DNA of 64,000 nt, from NCBI GenBank assembly GCA_947447525.1, contig CANFJL010000001.1:1-64000 (forward strand), read 5' to 3'. Made by a program: the position numbers and the translations under genes. Below the pieces are notes generated by a model, which did no database searches, was not told the origin of the DNA, and saw nothing but the letters and a program-made list of their open reading frames with translations. This stretch comes from Flavobacteriales bacterium. Its GTDB lineage: Bacteria > Bacteroidota > Bacteroidia > Flavobacteriales_D > Crocinitomicaceae. Positions 7,964 through 59,631 of this stretch are shown piece by piece (position 1 is the first letter of the stretch; every line of letters starts with the position of its first letter).

Positions 7964-7971
7964 TACTTTTG
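7964..7971 (+). promoter_or_regulatory. Putative -7 promoter box, 4 bases before an ATG
   Basis: TACTTTTG matches TAnnTTTG and ends only 4 bases before the ATG at 7976. If transcription starts at the usual distance from this box, the mRNA would have almost no leader. The -33 element is not obvious. Confidence 0.4.
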
Positions 7972-7975
7972 ACAT

Positions 7976-8740
7976 ATGAACAATTGGAAATTTACTTTTT
8001 TAATTTTTATGCTCTTTATTTCTTTGTGCTCCAATGCGCAGAGAAATGTCAAAGATTCAGCAATTTCAACTCCTTGGGTGGGGGTACATTATGGTGCTAA
8101 TCTACCAGGTGCAGACTTATTAGCGCGCTATGGTTTTTTGAATCATGTTGGATTTATGGCGGGATATAAAACTAAAAAACAATGGTATTATGGTCTTGAT
8201 GCAAATTTTATTTTTGGGCGAACGGTTCACATGACCGGACTTTTTGATCATTTGGTTGATGATAAAGGAAACATCACAGATGTCAATGGAGACATTGCAA
8301 AAGTATTTGTAATGCCAAGGGGTTTTAATGCCAATGTGTCCGTGGGAAGATTATTTCCTATATTTGGTTCCAATAAAAGTTCTGGTATTTTCATTCATGG
8401 AGGCCTTGGATATTTATTGCATCATCTTCGAGTAGAAACGCAAGATCAAGTTATTCCTCAATTAGAATTAGATTATAAAAAAGGATATGATCGCTTATCG
8501 ATTGGAATCAATACCCACCAATTTGTTGGTTATGCATTTTTAGCTGATGGTGGATTTTATAATTTTTATGCAGGTTTGTATGCTCAGCAAGGATTTACAA
8601 AAAATCAACGCACCATATATTTTGATCAACCAACGGTTCCTGTCTCTACTGCAACGCGTTTAGACTTACAGTTTGGCTTGCGCGCAGGTTGGTTTATTCC
8701 AATTTACAAGCGTAAACCAAAGGATTACTATTTTAATTGA
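7976..8740 (+). CDS. Predicted outer-membrane or secreted protein of unknown function
   Basis: The 254-residue protein has a signal peptide (hydrophobic residues 7-20, cleavage near CSNAQ, 18-22). The remainder has alternating aromatic/glycine strands such as WVGVHYGANLPG, SVGRLFP, FIHGGLGYLLHH and FGLRAGWFIPIYKR, typical of small outer-membrane beta-barrels in this phylum. It precedes the Kdo transferase gene, whose ATG overlaps its stop (TGATG), so the two are probably co-transcribed. A link to the outer membrane is suggested by that neighbour. No specific function is recognised. Confidence 0.75.
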   Translation: MNNWKFTFLIFMLFISLCSNAQRNVKDSAISTPWVGVHYGANLPGADLLARYGFLNHVGFMAGYKTKKQWYYGLDANFIFGRTVHMTGLFDHLVDDKGNITDVNGDIAKVFVMPRGFNANVSVGRLFPIFGSNKSSGIFIHGGLGYLLHHLRVETQDQVIPQLELDYKKGYDRLSIGINTHQFVGYAFLADGGFYNFYAGLYAQQGFTKNQRTIYFDQPTVPVSTATRLDLQFGLRAGWFIPIYKRKPKDYYFN

Positions 8741-31599: not shown

Positions 31600-31607
31600 T
31601 AACTTCG
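31600..31607 (+). promoter_or_regulatory. Weak -7-like box 4 bases before an ATG
   Basis: TAACTTCG differs from TAnnTTTG at one position and sits 4 bases before the ATG at 31612, the same spacing as at 7964, 37438 and 57874. Support is weak on its own. The rest of the 168-base gap is AT-rich without other clear signals. Confidence 0.25.
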
Positions 31608-31611
31608 TTTT

Positions 31612-32001
31612 ATGAAAAACATAGGTGTTTTAATTATTTTTTTGATTTGCTGTTTTATTTCTTCGGCTCAGGACATTAAAGTAAAAAGAAAATTCAGAGG
31701 AATTTACACGGGAATAATCCCTCCTTATGAATTCAATTCAGGGGAAGAATTATTTAGAGTGTCTTCGGCTCCGATTTCAATTACCATTAGCAAAACAGGA
31801 TACTTATTAACTATTGGCGACTTGAATTATGAAGGAGAAATCATTGCACTAAGCGTCAAGAAAAAACAAGCGTATTTCACCATTAAGATTCCGGAGTATT
31901 CTTTAGAAGAGAAGGTTCAAGTAGATGCTAAAAAAAAGATTTTACTTAGAGATGGCATTCGACCTCAACCCATCTTGCAACTGAGAAAAATTAAGGAATA
32001 A
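31612..32001 (+). CDS. Small secreted protein of unknown function
   Basis: The 129-residue protein has a signal peptide (MKNIGVLIIFLICCFISSAQ) and a mature part rich in beta-strand pattern (FRGIYTGIIPPYEFN, ISITISKTGYLLTIGDL). No cysteine lipobox and no known domain are seen. Its last 11 bases overlap the 3' end of the converging histidine kinase gene. Conserved small exported proteins of this kind are common in Flavobacteriales. Confidence 0.65.
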   Translation: MKNIGVLIIFLICCFISSAQDIKVKRKFRGIYTGIIPPYEFNSGEELFRVSSAPISITISKTGYLLTIGDLNYEGEIIALSVKKKQAYFTIKIPEYSLEEKVQVDAKKKILLRDGIRPQPILQLRKIKE

Positions 32002-37437: not shown

Positions 37438-37445
37438 TAAATTTG
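37438..37445 (+). promoter_or_regulatory. Putative -7 promoter box, 4 bases before an ATG
   Basis: TAAATTTG matches the consensus and ends 4 bases before the response regulator ATG at 37450. It would give a leaderless or nearly leaderless mRNA, independent of the kinase gene upstream. Confidence 0.42.
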
Positions 37446-37449
37446 CGCC

Positions 37450-37860
37450 ATGGATTCTATAAAATATGCTGTTGTTTGTGTCGATGATGACCCATTTATT
37501 CTTCAAATGCTATCCTTTCAACTCACTAAAGTTGTTAATCAAAAGCATACCCTTATTGAATATTTCACGGATCCTTCTGAAGCCTTTATCAACATAGATG
37601 CGCTTGTAGAAGAAAAGATTGATATCATATTTATTATTGTAGATTATCAAATGCCAGAAATGACTGGAGCCCAATTAATCCGTGCCATAAAATTGAAACA
37701 TCCTAATCTTAAATGCATAATGCTTTCTGGACAAGCTAATCCGATTTCTGTAGAAGAATTATTGCAGGATGAAATGTTAGAAAGTTTTATTGCAAAGCCT
37801 TGGAATGAAGAAGTCTTGTTTCAAGCCATACAACCCATAATAGAATCTTTAGAAGCTTAA
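37450..37860 (+). CDS. Single-domain response regulator
   Basis: The 136-residue protein is a receiver domain only, with the acidic pocket VCVDDDPF (13-20), the phosphoacceptor D65 in IVDYQMPEMTG, the conserved serine of CIMLSG and the lysine of FIAKPW. There is no output domain, so it probably acts by protein contact or as a phosphate relay. Its position behind the PAS kinase gene makes that kinase the likely partner. Confidence 0.9.
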   Translation: MDSIKYAVVCVDDDPFILQMLSFQLTKVVNQKHTLIEYFTDPSEAFINIDALVEEKIDIIFIIVDYQMPEMTGAQLIRAIKLKHPNLKCIMLSGQANPISVEELLQDEMLESFIAKPWNEEVLFQAIQPIIESLEA

Positions 37861-46558: not shown

Positions 46559-49500
46559 TTGGCAACAACGAATAATTCAACGAGAATTAATTTTGCTTCA
46601 AGCAAAAATCAATTTGATTATCCAGATTTTCTGGAAATCCAATTAAAATCATTTAAGGAGTTTTTCCAATTGGAAACAACACCTGAAAATAGAGATAGTG
46701 AAGGTCTATTCAAAGTTTTTGCTGAAAACTTTCCTATCACTGATACGCGCAACCAGTTCGTATTAGAATTTTTGGATTACTTTATCGATCCCCCTCGTTA
46801 CACTATTGAAGAGTGTATCGAAAGAGGATTGACGTATAGTGTTCCTCTAAAAGCAAAATTAAAATTGTATTGTACTGATCCTGAACATGAGGATTTCGAA
46901 ACTATCGTTCAAGATGTTTATCTAGGTACAATTCCTTATATGACTCCTAAAGGATCTTTTGTAGTCAATGGCGCTGAACGCGTTATTGTTTCGCAATTGC
47001 ATCGCTCTCCAGGAGTTTTCTTTGGTCAAAGTCGTCACGCAAATGGTACAAAATTGTACTCCGCTCGTGTAATTCCTTTCAAGGGATCTTGGATTGAATT
47101 CGCTACGGATATCAATAGTATTATGTATGCTTACATTGATCGTAAGAAAAAATTACCTGTTACAACACTTTTCCGCGCAATTGGTTATGAAACTGATCGT
47201 GACATCTTAGAGATCTTTGGTCTTGCTGATGAAGTGAAAGTGAATAAAGCAAATATGAAAAAATTGGTAGGACGCCGTCTTGCCGCTAGAGTTTTGAAAA
47301 CTTGGATCGAAGATTTTGTTGATGAAGATACTGGAGAAGTTGTTTCTATTGAAAGAAATGAAGTAATTCTTGATAGAGAATTGACAGTAGAAGAAGAGCA
47401 CTTAGATCAAATTCTTAATTCTGGTACTAAGTCTGTTATCTTGCACAAAGAAAATGCAAATTCAACAGATTATACTATTATTTATAATACACTTCAAAAA
47501 GATACTTCTAATTCTGAAAAAGAAGCAATCGAACACATCTATCGTCAGTTGAGGAATGCAGATCCGCCCGACTTTGAAACAGCGAAAAGTGTATTTGAAA
47601 AATTATTCTTCTCTGATACAAGATATGACTTAGGTGAGGTTGGAAGATACCGCCTAAATAAAAAATTGAAAATTGATGCTACTGAAGCGTCAAGAGTTCT
47701 TACGAAAAATGATATTATTCAAATCGTTAAGTATTTGATCGAATTGATCAATTCAAAAGCAGATGTGGATGATATTGACCATTTATCTAATAGAAGGGTA
47801 AGAACAGTTGGTGAACAATTATATGCTCAATTTGGTGTTGGTTTAGCCCGTATGGCAAGAACTATTCGTGAGCGTATGAATGTACGTGATAATGAAGTCT
47901 TTACTCCTATTGACTTGATTAACGCTAAAACATTGTCTTCTGTAATTAACTCTTTCTTTGGAACGAATCAGCTTTCTCAGTTTATGGATCAAACGAATCC
48001 GCTTTCTGAGGTTACGCACAAAAGAAGGCTGTCTGCCCTAGGACCAGGCGGTTTATCGCGTGAAAGAGCTGGATTTGAGGTTCGTGATGTTCACTATACG
48101 CACTATGGTCGTTTGTGTACTATCGAAACTCCTGAAGGACCAAATATTGGATTGATTTCTTCTCTTTGTGTATTCGCGAAAGTTAATAAATTAGGTTTCA
48201 TTGAAACACCTTATAGAAGAGTTGAAAAAGGTAAAGTGATCTTTAATGAAGAGCCAATTTATCTTGCAGCTGAAGAAGAGGATACTAAAACTATCGCTCA
48301 AGCAAATGCTGTAATTGATGATAAAGGTAATTTCTTATCTAATCTTGTTAAAGCTAGATATGAAGGTGATTTCCCAGTAGTTACTCCAGACAAATTAACT
48401 TTGATGGATGTAGGTGCTAATCAAATTGCTTCTATTGCAGCATCTTCTATTCCATTTTTGGAGCATGATGATGCCAACCGTGCTTTGATGGGATCTAACA
48501 TGCAACGTCAAGCGGTTCCGCTTTTACGTCCAAATTCTCCTATTGTTGGTACTGGTATCGAAAGGCTTGTTGCCCGTGATTCTCGTGTATTGATCAATGC
48601 AGAAGGAAATGGAGTAGTGGAATATGTTGACGCAGATGAGATTGTTATTCGTTACGATTGGACTAAAGAAGATAAATTAGTGAGCTTTGAAAGTGAAGTA
48701 ATTCGTTATTCTTTAACTAAATTTAGAAAAACAAATCAAGGAACTTGTATCAATCTAAAGCCGATTGTTCAAAAAGGTGACAGAGTTGAAAGAGGTCAAG
48801 TTTTATGTGAAGGTTTTGCTACTCAAAGTGGTGAATTAGCCCTTGGACAAAATTTAAAAGTAGCTTTCATGCCTTGGAAAGGGTACAATTTTGAGGATGC
48901 GATTGTTATTTCTGAAAAGGTTGTTCGTGAGGATATCTTTACTTCAATTCATATTGATGAATATTCTTTAGAGGTTCGTGATACTAAAAGAGGAATGGAA
49001 GAATTAACTTCTGATATTCCTAATGTTAGCGAAGAAGCTACTAAAGATCTTGATGATAACGGTTTGATTCGTATTGGTGCTGATATCAAAGAAGGTGACA
49101 TCCTAATTGGTAAAATCACTCCAAAAGGTGAAACAGATCCGTCTCCTGAAGAAAAATTATTGCGTGCTATCTTTGGTGACAAAGCTGGTGATGTGAAAGA
49201 TGCTTCTTTAAAAGCTGGTCCTTCTTTAAGAGGTACTGTTATCGAGAAAAAATTGTTCTCAAGAGCTATAAAAGATAGAAAGTCTAAAAATCAAGATAAA
49301 TCAGTTCTTGAAACTATTGATGCTGAATACCAACGCGAATTTGCTGAAGTAAAAGAAAAGTTAGTTGAAAAATTAATGATGATTTTAGGAGAGCATAAAG
49401 CTGCTGGTGTATTCAATAACTTTAAAGAGGAATTGATTAAGAAAGGAACTAAGTTTAATGCTAAGTCTTTGATGGCAATTGATTATACCATCATCAATCC

Positions 49501-56875: not shown

Positions 56876-57829
56876 TTATTCCCAAACACCCATTTTATTA
56901 AATTTATCGATTCTTTGATTGATGCGTTCATCTGGCTTAATAGCATCTAGTTCCTTAAGATATTTTAAGATGTATTTTTTAACGGTGGCAAAGTTTTCAG
57001 ACTGCGATCGATGCGCTCCATTAATGGGTTCAGGAATTACCTCATCAACTAAACCAAATTTTTTCATGTCTGTTGACGTTAATTTTAAGGCATCTGCAGC
57101 GGTTTCTTTGAATTCCCAAGACCTCCATAAAATAGACGAACATGATTCAGGTGAGATCACAGAGTACCAAGTATTTTCTAGCATAACTACCTTGTCTCCA
57201 ACACCAATTCCTAATGCTCCTCCTGATGCTCCTTCTCCAATTATAATGCAAATGACAGGTACCTTTAAGCGCATCATTTCGTATATATTTCTCGCAATCG
57301 CTTCCCCTTGACCTCTTTCTTCAGCCTCTAAACCTGGATATGCTCCTGGAGTGTCAATAAAGGTTACGATAGGTTTATTAAATTTTTCTGCAAGCTTCAT
57401 CAAACGCAAAGCCTTTCTGTATCCTTCTGGATTGGGCATTCCAAAATTTCTGTATTGACGCATCTTGGTATTGATTCCTTTTTGTTGACCGATAAACATC
57501 ACTGTTCTTCCGTCAATGGCACCAAAACCACCTACCATTGCTTTATCGTCCTTAACGCCCCTATCGCCATGCAACTCTAAAAAATCACCATCACTAACGG
57601 CATCAATATAAGCTAGAGTATAGGGTCTGTCTGGGTGTCTAGACAATTGAACACGCTGCCAAGGACTTAGTTTTCCAAATATTTCTTTAGAAGTTGTTTT
57701 TAATAAGTCCTCTAATTCTTTTATTTTATCAGACATGTCTACTTCCGTAGAGATTCCAATTTCCTTGGTTTGTGCTATTTGTTCTTCTAAGGCACGAAGC
57801 GGTTCTTCAAAATCAAGATAGGTTGACAT
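56876..57829 (-). CDS. accA: Acetyl-CoA carboxylase carboxyltransferase subunit alpha
   Basis: The 317-residue protein has [73 protein letters not shown] and [17 protein letters not shown], all diagnostic for AccA. It transfers the carboxyl group from carboxybiotin to acetyl-CoA together with AccD, which is not in the window. Confidence 0.97.
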
Positions 57830-57845
57830 AGTATTTATTTTACTG

Positions 57846-57853
57846 CAAAATTA
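57846..57853 (-). promoter_or_regulatory. Putative -7 promoter box for accA-recG
   Basis: The minus-strand sequence TAATTTTG lies 16 bases before the accA ATG. It is followed closely by the divergent box for ispE at 57874, so both promoters share a 56-base gap. Confidence 0.38.
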
Positions 57854-57873
57854 CAAAAATTGCTTTGTTCTTC

Positions 57874-57881
57874 TAATTTTG
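57874..57881 (+). promoter_or_regulatory. Putative -7 promoter box, 4 bases before the ispE ATG
   Basis: TAATTTTG matches TAnnTTTG and ends 4 bases before the ATG at 57886, pointing to a leaderless or nearly leaderless mRNA. No clear -33 TTTG at 17-20 bases. Confidence 0.4.
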
Positions 57882-57885
57882 TACT

Positions 57886-58701
57886 ATGATCTTATACCCT
57901 CCGGCTAAAATAAATTTAGGACTGCATGTACTGCGCAAGCGCTCAGATGGTTTTCATGAAATTGAATCAGTAATGTATCCTGTGCCTTTTTATGATATTT
58001 TGGAGATTTTACCCGCTCCAATAAATTCATTTCATCAATCAGGAATTATTTTCGCTGATACCCATGAGAAGAATTTATGTGAACAAGCAGTGGATCTTAT
58101 GCAGTCAAAATTTAATACTCCTCCTGTTTCCATTCACTTGCGCAAACAAATTCCAGTAGGGGCAGGCCTAGGTGGTGGATCCGCTGATGCAGCTTATGTT
58201 ATCTTAGGACTAAATCAACTTTTTAACTTGGGATTATCGCATGTAGAAATGGAAGAAATAGTTGCTATATTAGGAAGCGATTGTCCATTCTTTATTCAAA
58301 ATAAGGTTAGAATGATCTCTGGGAGAGGTGAAATATTGAATGAGGTTAAATGTGATTTATCCGAGTATTATTTAGTGCTATTAAATCCAAAAATTCATGT
58401 CAGTACTAAAGAGGCGTATAGTAATGTTACGCCTAAAGAAAATCAAATCAGCATCGCTTCTATTCTTCAAAAAAATATTTCTTCATGGCAATCTTCTTTG
58501 AAAAATGACTTCGAAAGTCCTATCTGTAATCAATATCCCTTGATACAAGATTGTATTGATCAATTGAAAATAGCAGGTGCAATTTATACCGCTATGTCTG
58601 GAAGTGGCTCAACAGTTTTTGGGATATTCTCAAGAAATGATTGTACCCTTCCTAGCTTATTTAATGATTATATTATTTTCCAAGGAAAATTAATGCTGTA
58701 G
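57886..58701 (+). CDS. ispE: 4-diphosphocytidyl-2-C-methyl-D-erythritol kinase
   Basis: The 271-residue GHMP kinase starts PPAKINLGLHVLRKRSDGFHEIESVM (substrate site), has the ATP loop PVGAGLGGGSADAA and ends with AMSGSGSTVFGIF. It phosphorylates CDP-ME in the non-mevalonate isoprenoid pathway, so the organism appears to use the MEP route. It is transcribed divergently from accA. Confidence 0.95.
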   Translation: MILYPPAKINLGLHVLRKRSDGFHEIESVMYPVPFYDILEILPAPINSFHQSGIIFADTHEKNLCEQAVDLMQSKFNTPPVSIHLRKQIPVGAGLGGGSADAAYVILGLNQLFNLGLSHVEMEEIVAILGSDCPFFIQNKVRMISGRGEILNEVKCDLSEYYLVLLNPKIHVSTKEAYSNVTPKENQISIASILQKNISSWQSSLKNDFESPICNQYPLIQDCIDQLKIAGAIYTAMSGSGSTVFGIFSRNDCTLPSLFNDYIIFQGKLML

Positions 58702-59606: not shown

Positions 59607-59631
59607 AGTTAATAATTTTTAATTTTCTCAA

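Follow-up and report, generated by a model that had tools for sequence, protein, structure and literature searches.

Leaderless mRNAs are known in Bacteroidota, where they have been termed a small minority (PMC6847099, PMC9723704, PMC7366714). Leaderless mRNAs account for 5.5% in Flavobacterium psychrophilum (PMC9723704), leaders under 10 nt for 3.7% in B. thetaiotaomicron (PMC7366714) and leaders of at most 10 nt for 13% in Flavobacterium johnsoniae (PMC6847099). These three species are among the closest described systems: they belong to the same phylum as the genome studied here, use the same −7 box, TAnnTTTG, and have a leaderless or very-short-leader minority too. Whereas their minorities were mapped, the class described below is predicted from sequence; in two sampled genomes of one genus it accounts for 20% and 29% of the starts linked to a box, and its spacing sets it apart from the leadered class.

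A similar arrangement is described for Deinococcus-Thermus, where a −10 motif, TANNNT, adjoining the open frame gives rise to leaderless mRNA, in D. radiodurans for about one third of the genes (PMC12340547). There, as here, a core promoter element is fixed a few bases before the ATG (PMC12340547). In contrast, the phylum and the sigma factor differ, the element here is the 8-base sigma-ABfr box, and the proof there is experimental while the case here is made from sequence. Leaderless genes had also been sought in silico, via a promoter signal near the start codon, by Zheng et al. in 2011 (PMC3160421), and recognition by a start-proximal promoter signal is common to both studies. That study looked for Pribnow-like signals, found leaderless genes in 1/37 Bacteroidetes/Chlorobi genomes and stated that other boxes can be missed (PMC3160421). 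Nakagawa et al. suspected leaderless mRNAs from base biases (PMC5397173).

The literature covered, which includes PMC3155529 and PMC10783764 and represents the journals in part, contained no Bacteroidota lineage with so large a class, with two-peaked spacing or with a conserved ispE arrangement. Within the same partial coverage, no papers were found that link the term leaderless with Bacteroidota or with Crocinitomicaceae.

Candidate boxes in the window

The window, the whole 64-kb stretch of DNA analysed, had been annotated in a first pass with five start codons that follow TAnnTTTG, or a close version of it, by exactly 4 bases (N4). The pattern check found all five in place: exact TAnnTTTG-N4-ATG stands before open frames at 7964, 37438 and 57874, and the sites at 31600 (TAACTTCG-N4) and 59620 (TAATTTTC-N4) are one-mismatch versions (Table 1). 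A fourth exact match, at 48396, was absent from the earlier list. Two of the gene labels given at the time were borne out, namely response regulator for the gene behind 37438 (Response_reg PF00072, E 2e-16) and ispE for the gene behind 57874 (TIGR00154, E 5.6e-58). The gene at 7976 had been called an outer-membrane protein and the one at 31612 a small secreted protein, and neither label found backing: the former matched no Pfam family at E ≤0.001 (best hit E 0.3) and no NCBIfam family at 1e-10, and the latter no Pfam family at E up to 0.001. The 7976 gene was matched in 37/40 genomes, its own included.

On its own, the window lies barely above chance, with 4 exact matches versus 1.79 expected and 11/100 shuffles reaching 4, which is weak. 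Matches with at most one mismatch are below expectation (28 versus 42.9 from shuffles), and such matches therefore carry no weight by themselves.

Table 1 Boxes, downstream genes and related matches in the 64-kb window
Feature	Position	Strand	Remarks
Box TACTTTTG	7964..7971	+	4 bases 5′ of ATG at 7976
Open frame, 254 aa, signal-peptide-like start (by eye), predicted leaderless	7976..8740	+	No family match in Pfam (E ≤0.001) or NCBIfam (1e-10)
Variant box TAACTTCG	31600..31607	+	4 bases 5′ of ATG at 31612; suggestive only
Short open frame of 129 aa downstream of variant box	31612..32001	+	Open reading frame
Box TAAATTTG	37438..37445	+	4 bases 5′ of ATG at 37450; site of the first-pass annotation
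Single-domain response regulator, 136 aa, predicted leaderless here	37450..37860	+	PF00072
Exact pattern match within rpoB, no gene start	48396..48410	+	TIGR02013; ATG meets stop after one codon
Divergent box TAATTTTG	57846..57853	−	16 bases 5′ of accA-type gene that starts at 57829; illustrates the leadered class; PF03255, E 9.7e-143
Box TAATTTTG	57874..57881	+	Predicted promoter −7 box, 4 bases 5′ of ispE ATG; strongest case
ispE, predicted leaderless mRNA, RNA +1 at or next to A of ATG	57886..58701	+	TIGR00154; box-to-TSS distance from PMC6847099
TAATTTTC	59620..59627	+	4 bases 5′ of amylase ATG; probably a chance match, outside the class

Two-peaked spacing between box and start codon

The source genome (G000) comprises 2.66 Mb in 22 contigs, of which the window and 40 further stretches, 864 kb (32%), were sampled. 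We counted ATGs that lie at a distance d of 0–60 bases from each TAnnTTTG and open frames of at least 60 codons, and used 29 permuted boxes as the control. The counts at d = 2–9 were 5, 11, 26, 14, 9, 9, 6 and 1, and those at d = 10–18 were 8, 11, 2, 6, 17, 6, 16, 25 and 15, compared with about 4 per distance for the permuted boxes; at d = 4, 26 were observed where 3.4 were expected. The spacing thus has two peaks, a sharp one at 4–5 (26 and 14) and a hump at 14–18. A second genome of the same genus (G186, 400 kb) has 18 starts at d = 4, 8 at d = 5, zero at d = 6–9 and a hump at 14–20, against a background of 1.4. The peak at 4 that the first-pass annotation had proposed to look for in the genome-wide distribution of box-to-ATG distances is therefore present in both.

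The gap between the peaks is empty in G186 (6–9) and thin in G000 (9 and 12). Leaders of only a few bases may thus suit neither mode of initiation, although the G000 starts at d = 6–8 argue against a strict rule. At d = 3, 6 and 7, G000 has 6, 7 and 6 called starts and the related G186 has 0, 0 and 0, which indicates looser spacing in G000. Both classes of box, near and leadered, occur together in one gap of the window: at 57830–57885, back-to-back promoters are packed into 56 bp, with the ispE box at N4 on the plus strand and the box of the accA-type gene at N16 on the minus strand.

Gene-level counts were made on called genes, leaving out those less than 25 bases from the next gene and those preceded by little upstream sequence. 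For the position-specific background, base frequencies were taken at every upstream position separately, and positions were treated as independent. Boxes at d = 4 and 5 together number 19 versus 1.05 expected in G000 and 19 versus 0.35 in G186. Other genera of the family gave 7 versus 0.31 (G205) and 0 versus 0.46 (G151), and two genomes from other families 1 each versus about 0.1. Most box-linked starts sit farther from the box, and near genes form a distinct, large minority beside a class with short leaders of about 9–14 nt: d = 3–6 accounts for 33/161 box-linked starts in G000 and 19/65 in G186, the 20% and 29% given above. Outside the genus the corresponding shares are 1/46 (G151), 9/54 (G205, nearest to the genus), 1/35 (G017) and 2/47 (G021), and the genus differs from these four outsiders with a Fisher P of 9.9e-6.

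Across the whole genome, TAnnTTTG-N4-ATG occurs 123 times and its reversed form, the control, 43 times. From this excess of 80, one would expect 26 in a sample of the present size, and 26 were observed, some 23 of which exceed background. Raw counts at N9 are also raised (93 versus 40 reversed), yet the sample holds 1 open-frame start at 9, and the N9 excess probably stems from coding-frame effects; the analysis was therefore based on open-frame-filtered distances. Scaled to the genome, the excess over background corresponds to about 150 genes at d = 3–7 and about 99 at d = 4–5, both being estimates from the 32% sample.

The peak is specific to the box. At d = 4, TAnnTTTA is weakly enriched at best (9 versus a mean of 6.2 in G000, 4 versus 1.7 in G186), and TAnnTTTC, TAnnTTTT, TGnnTTTG and TTnnTTTG lack a peak at d = 4 among the called genes of both genomes (for TAnnTTTC, 3 versus 2.8 and 1 versus 1.1). 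TAnnTTCG at d = 4, 5 and 6 gave 4, 4 and 4 versus 1.2 in G000, and 1, 1 and 1 versus 0.6 in G186. Membership in the TANNNT class of Deinococcus-Thermus, whose motif is recognized by the RpoD of that phylum, was considered and rejected: TAnnTTTC and TAnnTTTT contain TANNNT and yet show no peak at d = 4, and the phylum is a different one. The two systems work alike, but this one does not belong to that class.

To see which genes carry near boxes, we listed 59 (d = 3–8, G000 and G186) and searched 19 of them, mostly recognizable enzymes, against NCBIfam. The curated cut-off was reached by 14/19: ispE, ruvX, mnmA, dnaX, menA, pyrR and purK in G000, and dxr, mnmE, aroC, cysS, nadC, rsgA and apt in G186. 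The five that fell short are the 7976 gene, a helicase, an aminotransferase, an aroE-like protein and an ogt-like protein. The term housekeeping therefore fits the 14 named genes and not the whole list, which also includes unnamed and secreted-looking proteins.

Among 120 genomes of the family, the 16 that belong to the genus of the window have an N4 excess for the TAHHTTTG pattern of 31 per Mb, or 79 per genome, and the other 104 have one of 17 per Mb, or 59 per genome. The excess per genome is independent of genome size (Spearman 0.00), and the difference per Mb therefore partly reflects small genomes. A count over 148 phylum genomes put N4 at about three times its control in the families labelled f1 and f22 and at over twice the control in f2, f5, f20 and some others; f14, f15 and f21 show little or no excess. 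Raw N4 counts are only a rough guide here, as the N9 counts illustrate. The distant family f22 (for example G144, with 56 at N4 versus a control of 8, and 10 versus 7 at N9) may have a near-box class of its own.

Conservation at ispE and at other genes

The family set for ispE consists of the 30 best-scoring loci (own included) of 55 matching among 60 genomes. The near spacing is conserved: TAnnTTT[GA] precedes ispE at N4 in 24 loci and at N5 in 3, that is in 27/30, covering 12/15 genera, and the box ends in TTTG in 21/27. Of the remaining three, one lacks a box and two carry it at 28 or 35. The 24 N4 loci were chosen by their box, which fixes its letters except the last; that letter is G in 18 and A in 6. 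Between box and start, the four bases are free to vary (1.3–1.9 bits). ATG is the start codon of 22 loci and GTG that of 2, and 22/24 have a pyrimidine at −1. The ispE of G000 is 92–94% identical to that of two Flavobacteriales bacterium MAGs, and upstream of ispE these two loci are identical in sequence to the window. For this gene, the conserved spacing speaks in favour of the leaderless mRNA that the first-pass annotation had proposed. Beyond the family, 28 loci, the best-scoring of 87 matching genomes, contained no TAnnTTT[GA]-N4 before ispE: L188 has a box at N6, and the others have one at 10–29, depending on the start chosen, or none, with an ambiguous start in many distant loci. A leaderless arrangement of ispE across the phylum was thus not found in these loci.

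The 7976 gene has a box (TTTG or TTTA) at N4 in 9/15 loci of the genus and at N3, N5 or N6 in 3 more, a count that takes in its own copy and a 98% identical one, with some starts picked among several candidates. TTTA is present in 4/9 of the N4 loci, and one has a GTG start. A spacing of N3–N6 in 12/15 loci likewise favours a leaderless reading of this gene. TAnnTTTA at exactly N4 was seen in 6/24 ispE loci (L073–L102) and in 4/9 loci of the 7976 gene (L211–L225), a hint that the final G matters less at these loci.

The other sites of the window are kept less well or not at all. Seven other homologues of the response regulator have a box at d = 4 (one), at d = 21–22 (three) or none (three). 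A loosened box precedes the 31612 gene at N3–N5 in 7/12 genus loci, own included, and conservation of this variant may be called suggestive. Its homologues (L248–L259) keep boxes of the TAnnTTCG or TAnnTTTA type by the start, which may represent a weaker box or the site of another sigma factor. The amylase site at 59620, counted as a class member in the first pass, was rejected: its box, TAnnTTTC, is a variant without a peak at d = 4, the site is kept in 0/11 other loci, and chance is the best reading.

We also compared reciprocal-best pairs with a TTTG box at d = 3–6 on at least one side, a set that includes distant pairs and pairs whose starts are mis-called or differ. Both sides are boxed in 3/7 pairs with G186 of the same genus (ispE, dxr and the pair L036/L117), in 0/10 pairs with G205 (where two, including ispE, have TTTA at N4) and in 1/4 with G151. 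Gene-by-gene conservation beyond ispE is thus modest, and with the exception of ispE and the 7976 gene, membership of the near class seems to turn over. The box of dxr, another gene of the ispE pathway, stands at 6 in G000 and at 4 in G186 (L023 and L103).

Predicted RNA starts and translation

Near boxes carry the hallmarks of promoters. G is found at the nn positions in 2% of near boxes (d = 3–7, n = 59) and 3% of leadered boxes (d = 10–30, n = 115), compared with 17% of boxes within genes (n = 494). Near boxes thereby follow the TAHHTTTG rule, in which G is avoided at nn and which is known from F. johnsoniae (PMC6847099). A run of A and then T, 4–8 bases 5′ of the box, and a T after the box are common to near and leadered boxes and absent from boxes within genes. 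The base profiles 5′ of near and leadered boxes are without a clear −33 TTTG motif, an element that is hardly visible in F. johnsoniae too (PMC6847099).

In the mapped promoters of F. johnsoniae, RNA starts 4–5 nt after the box (PMC6847099), and in F. psychrophilum the box is placed at −12 to −5 (PMC9723704). The peak at d = 4–5, combined with the published distance of 4–5 nt from box to TSS, would put +1 on the A of the ATG. By this analogy with mapped Flavobacterium promoters, the spacing peak coincides with the expected RNA start and lends support to the idea of the first-pass annotation that these mRNAs begin at, or within 1–3 bases of, the start codon.

The bases around the predicted start agree with it. 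A pyrimidine stands at −1 in about 85% of 27 starts at d = 4, compared with 69% of 95 leadered starts; transcription generally starts at a pyrimidine/purine step, and the bias at −1 fits this rule. In leadered genes, the fifth base past the box brings a rise in A from 37% to 57%, although their leaders are generally A-rich. ATG is the start codon in 51/52 called starts at d = 3–6 (G000 and G186), where the caller favours ATG and leadered genes mostly have ATG too. There is some excess of GTG at d = 4 (5 versus 1.6), which indicates that AUG is not a strict requirement.

Very probably, then, the sites are ordinary −7 boxes from which the start falls on the A of the ATG, and the leaderless class is a real, large minority. 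The boxes would act as sigma-A-type (sigma-ABfr) −7 elements, with the sigma-A holoenzyme probably initiating 4–5 bases downstream, at the A of the start codon. The leader would be absent or 1–3 bases long, and ribosomes would initiate at a 5′-terminal AUG. The promoter part of this scheme draws on strong sequence evidence and published offsets, and the translation mode is what we infer from it. A second, upstream promoter could also yield leadered mRNAs from the same genes.

Three other readings were weighed. Near boxes could be promoters of genes that really start at an in-frame ATG farther downstream; the mRNAs would then have ordinary leaders and the near ATG would go unused. The start codons here are computed, and some NCBIfam alignments open 10–12 residues in (AroC 10–12, PurK 11 and CysS 12), as such later starts would allow. 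However, a later start would explain neither the pile-up of ATGs at d = 4–5 nor the empty d = 6–9 in G186. Other profile matches open at residues 1–5 (ispE 5, MnmA 2–3, DnaX 1, RuvX 3–5, Dxr 5 and Apt 4), and the 30 ispE loci align from query residue 1, with the initiation codon exactly N4 from the box in 24. We regard later starts as an improbable explanation of the class.

It is very improbable that TAnnTTTG-N4 lies within the mRNA and acts in translation through an A at −11 and A/U-rich surroundings, with transcription coming from farther upstream. A Kozak-like preference is the topic of PMC6847099, and leadered genes here also favour A at −11 (78% of 95), the position of the box's A in d = 4 genes. 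Yet a background that includes this preference predicts just 1.05 and 0.35 boxes at d = 4–5 in G000 and G186, and a ribosome site would need neither the avoidance of G at nn nor the upstream promoter pattern. Chance, which would hold that TAnnTTTG is common in AT-rich upstream regions and that four matches per 64 kb mean nothing, agrees with the window counts (not significant for exact matches, below expectation with one mismatch allowed) but is contradicted for the class by the sample peak against both the permuted-box and the position-specific controls and by the conservation at ispE, and is hardly credible.

Translation in Bacteroidota generally does without Shine-Dalgarno sites. From the data on F. 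johnsoniae it was argued that leaderless mRNAs are no explanation for this (PMC6847099). In our set, the anti-Shine-Dalgarno core GGCTGGAACACCTCC was found in 6/37 genomes of the genus and 12/60 overall; the remaining genomes, including G000, gave no match, presumably because the rRNA is missing or unassembled. A lost anti-Shine-Dalgarno as the cause of leaderlessness is unsupported, the core being present wherever a 16S end was found.

Returning to the reading of near boxes as promoters that start on the ATG, their spacing offers a cheap and direct prediction on RNA 5′ ends, and in gene calling a box 4–5 bases upstream flags a likely start codon. If +1 is the A of the AUG, a one-base shift of the TSS removes the start codon, and TSS choice could therefore switch translation. 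We consider it possible, tentatively, that leaderless initiation is a second regular mode in the family: it would serve about 100–150 genes per genome of the genus, many of them housekeeping, and ispE across at least 12 genera, with leaders of a few bases avoided and the anti-Shine-Dalgarno core retained. A genus in which 20–29% of box-linked starts look leaderless, alongside a short-leader class, would provide a natural comparison of two initiation modes in one cell.
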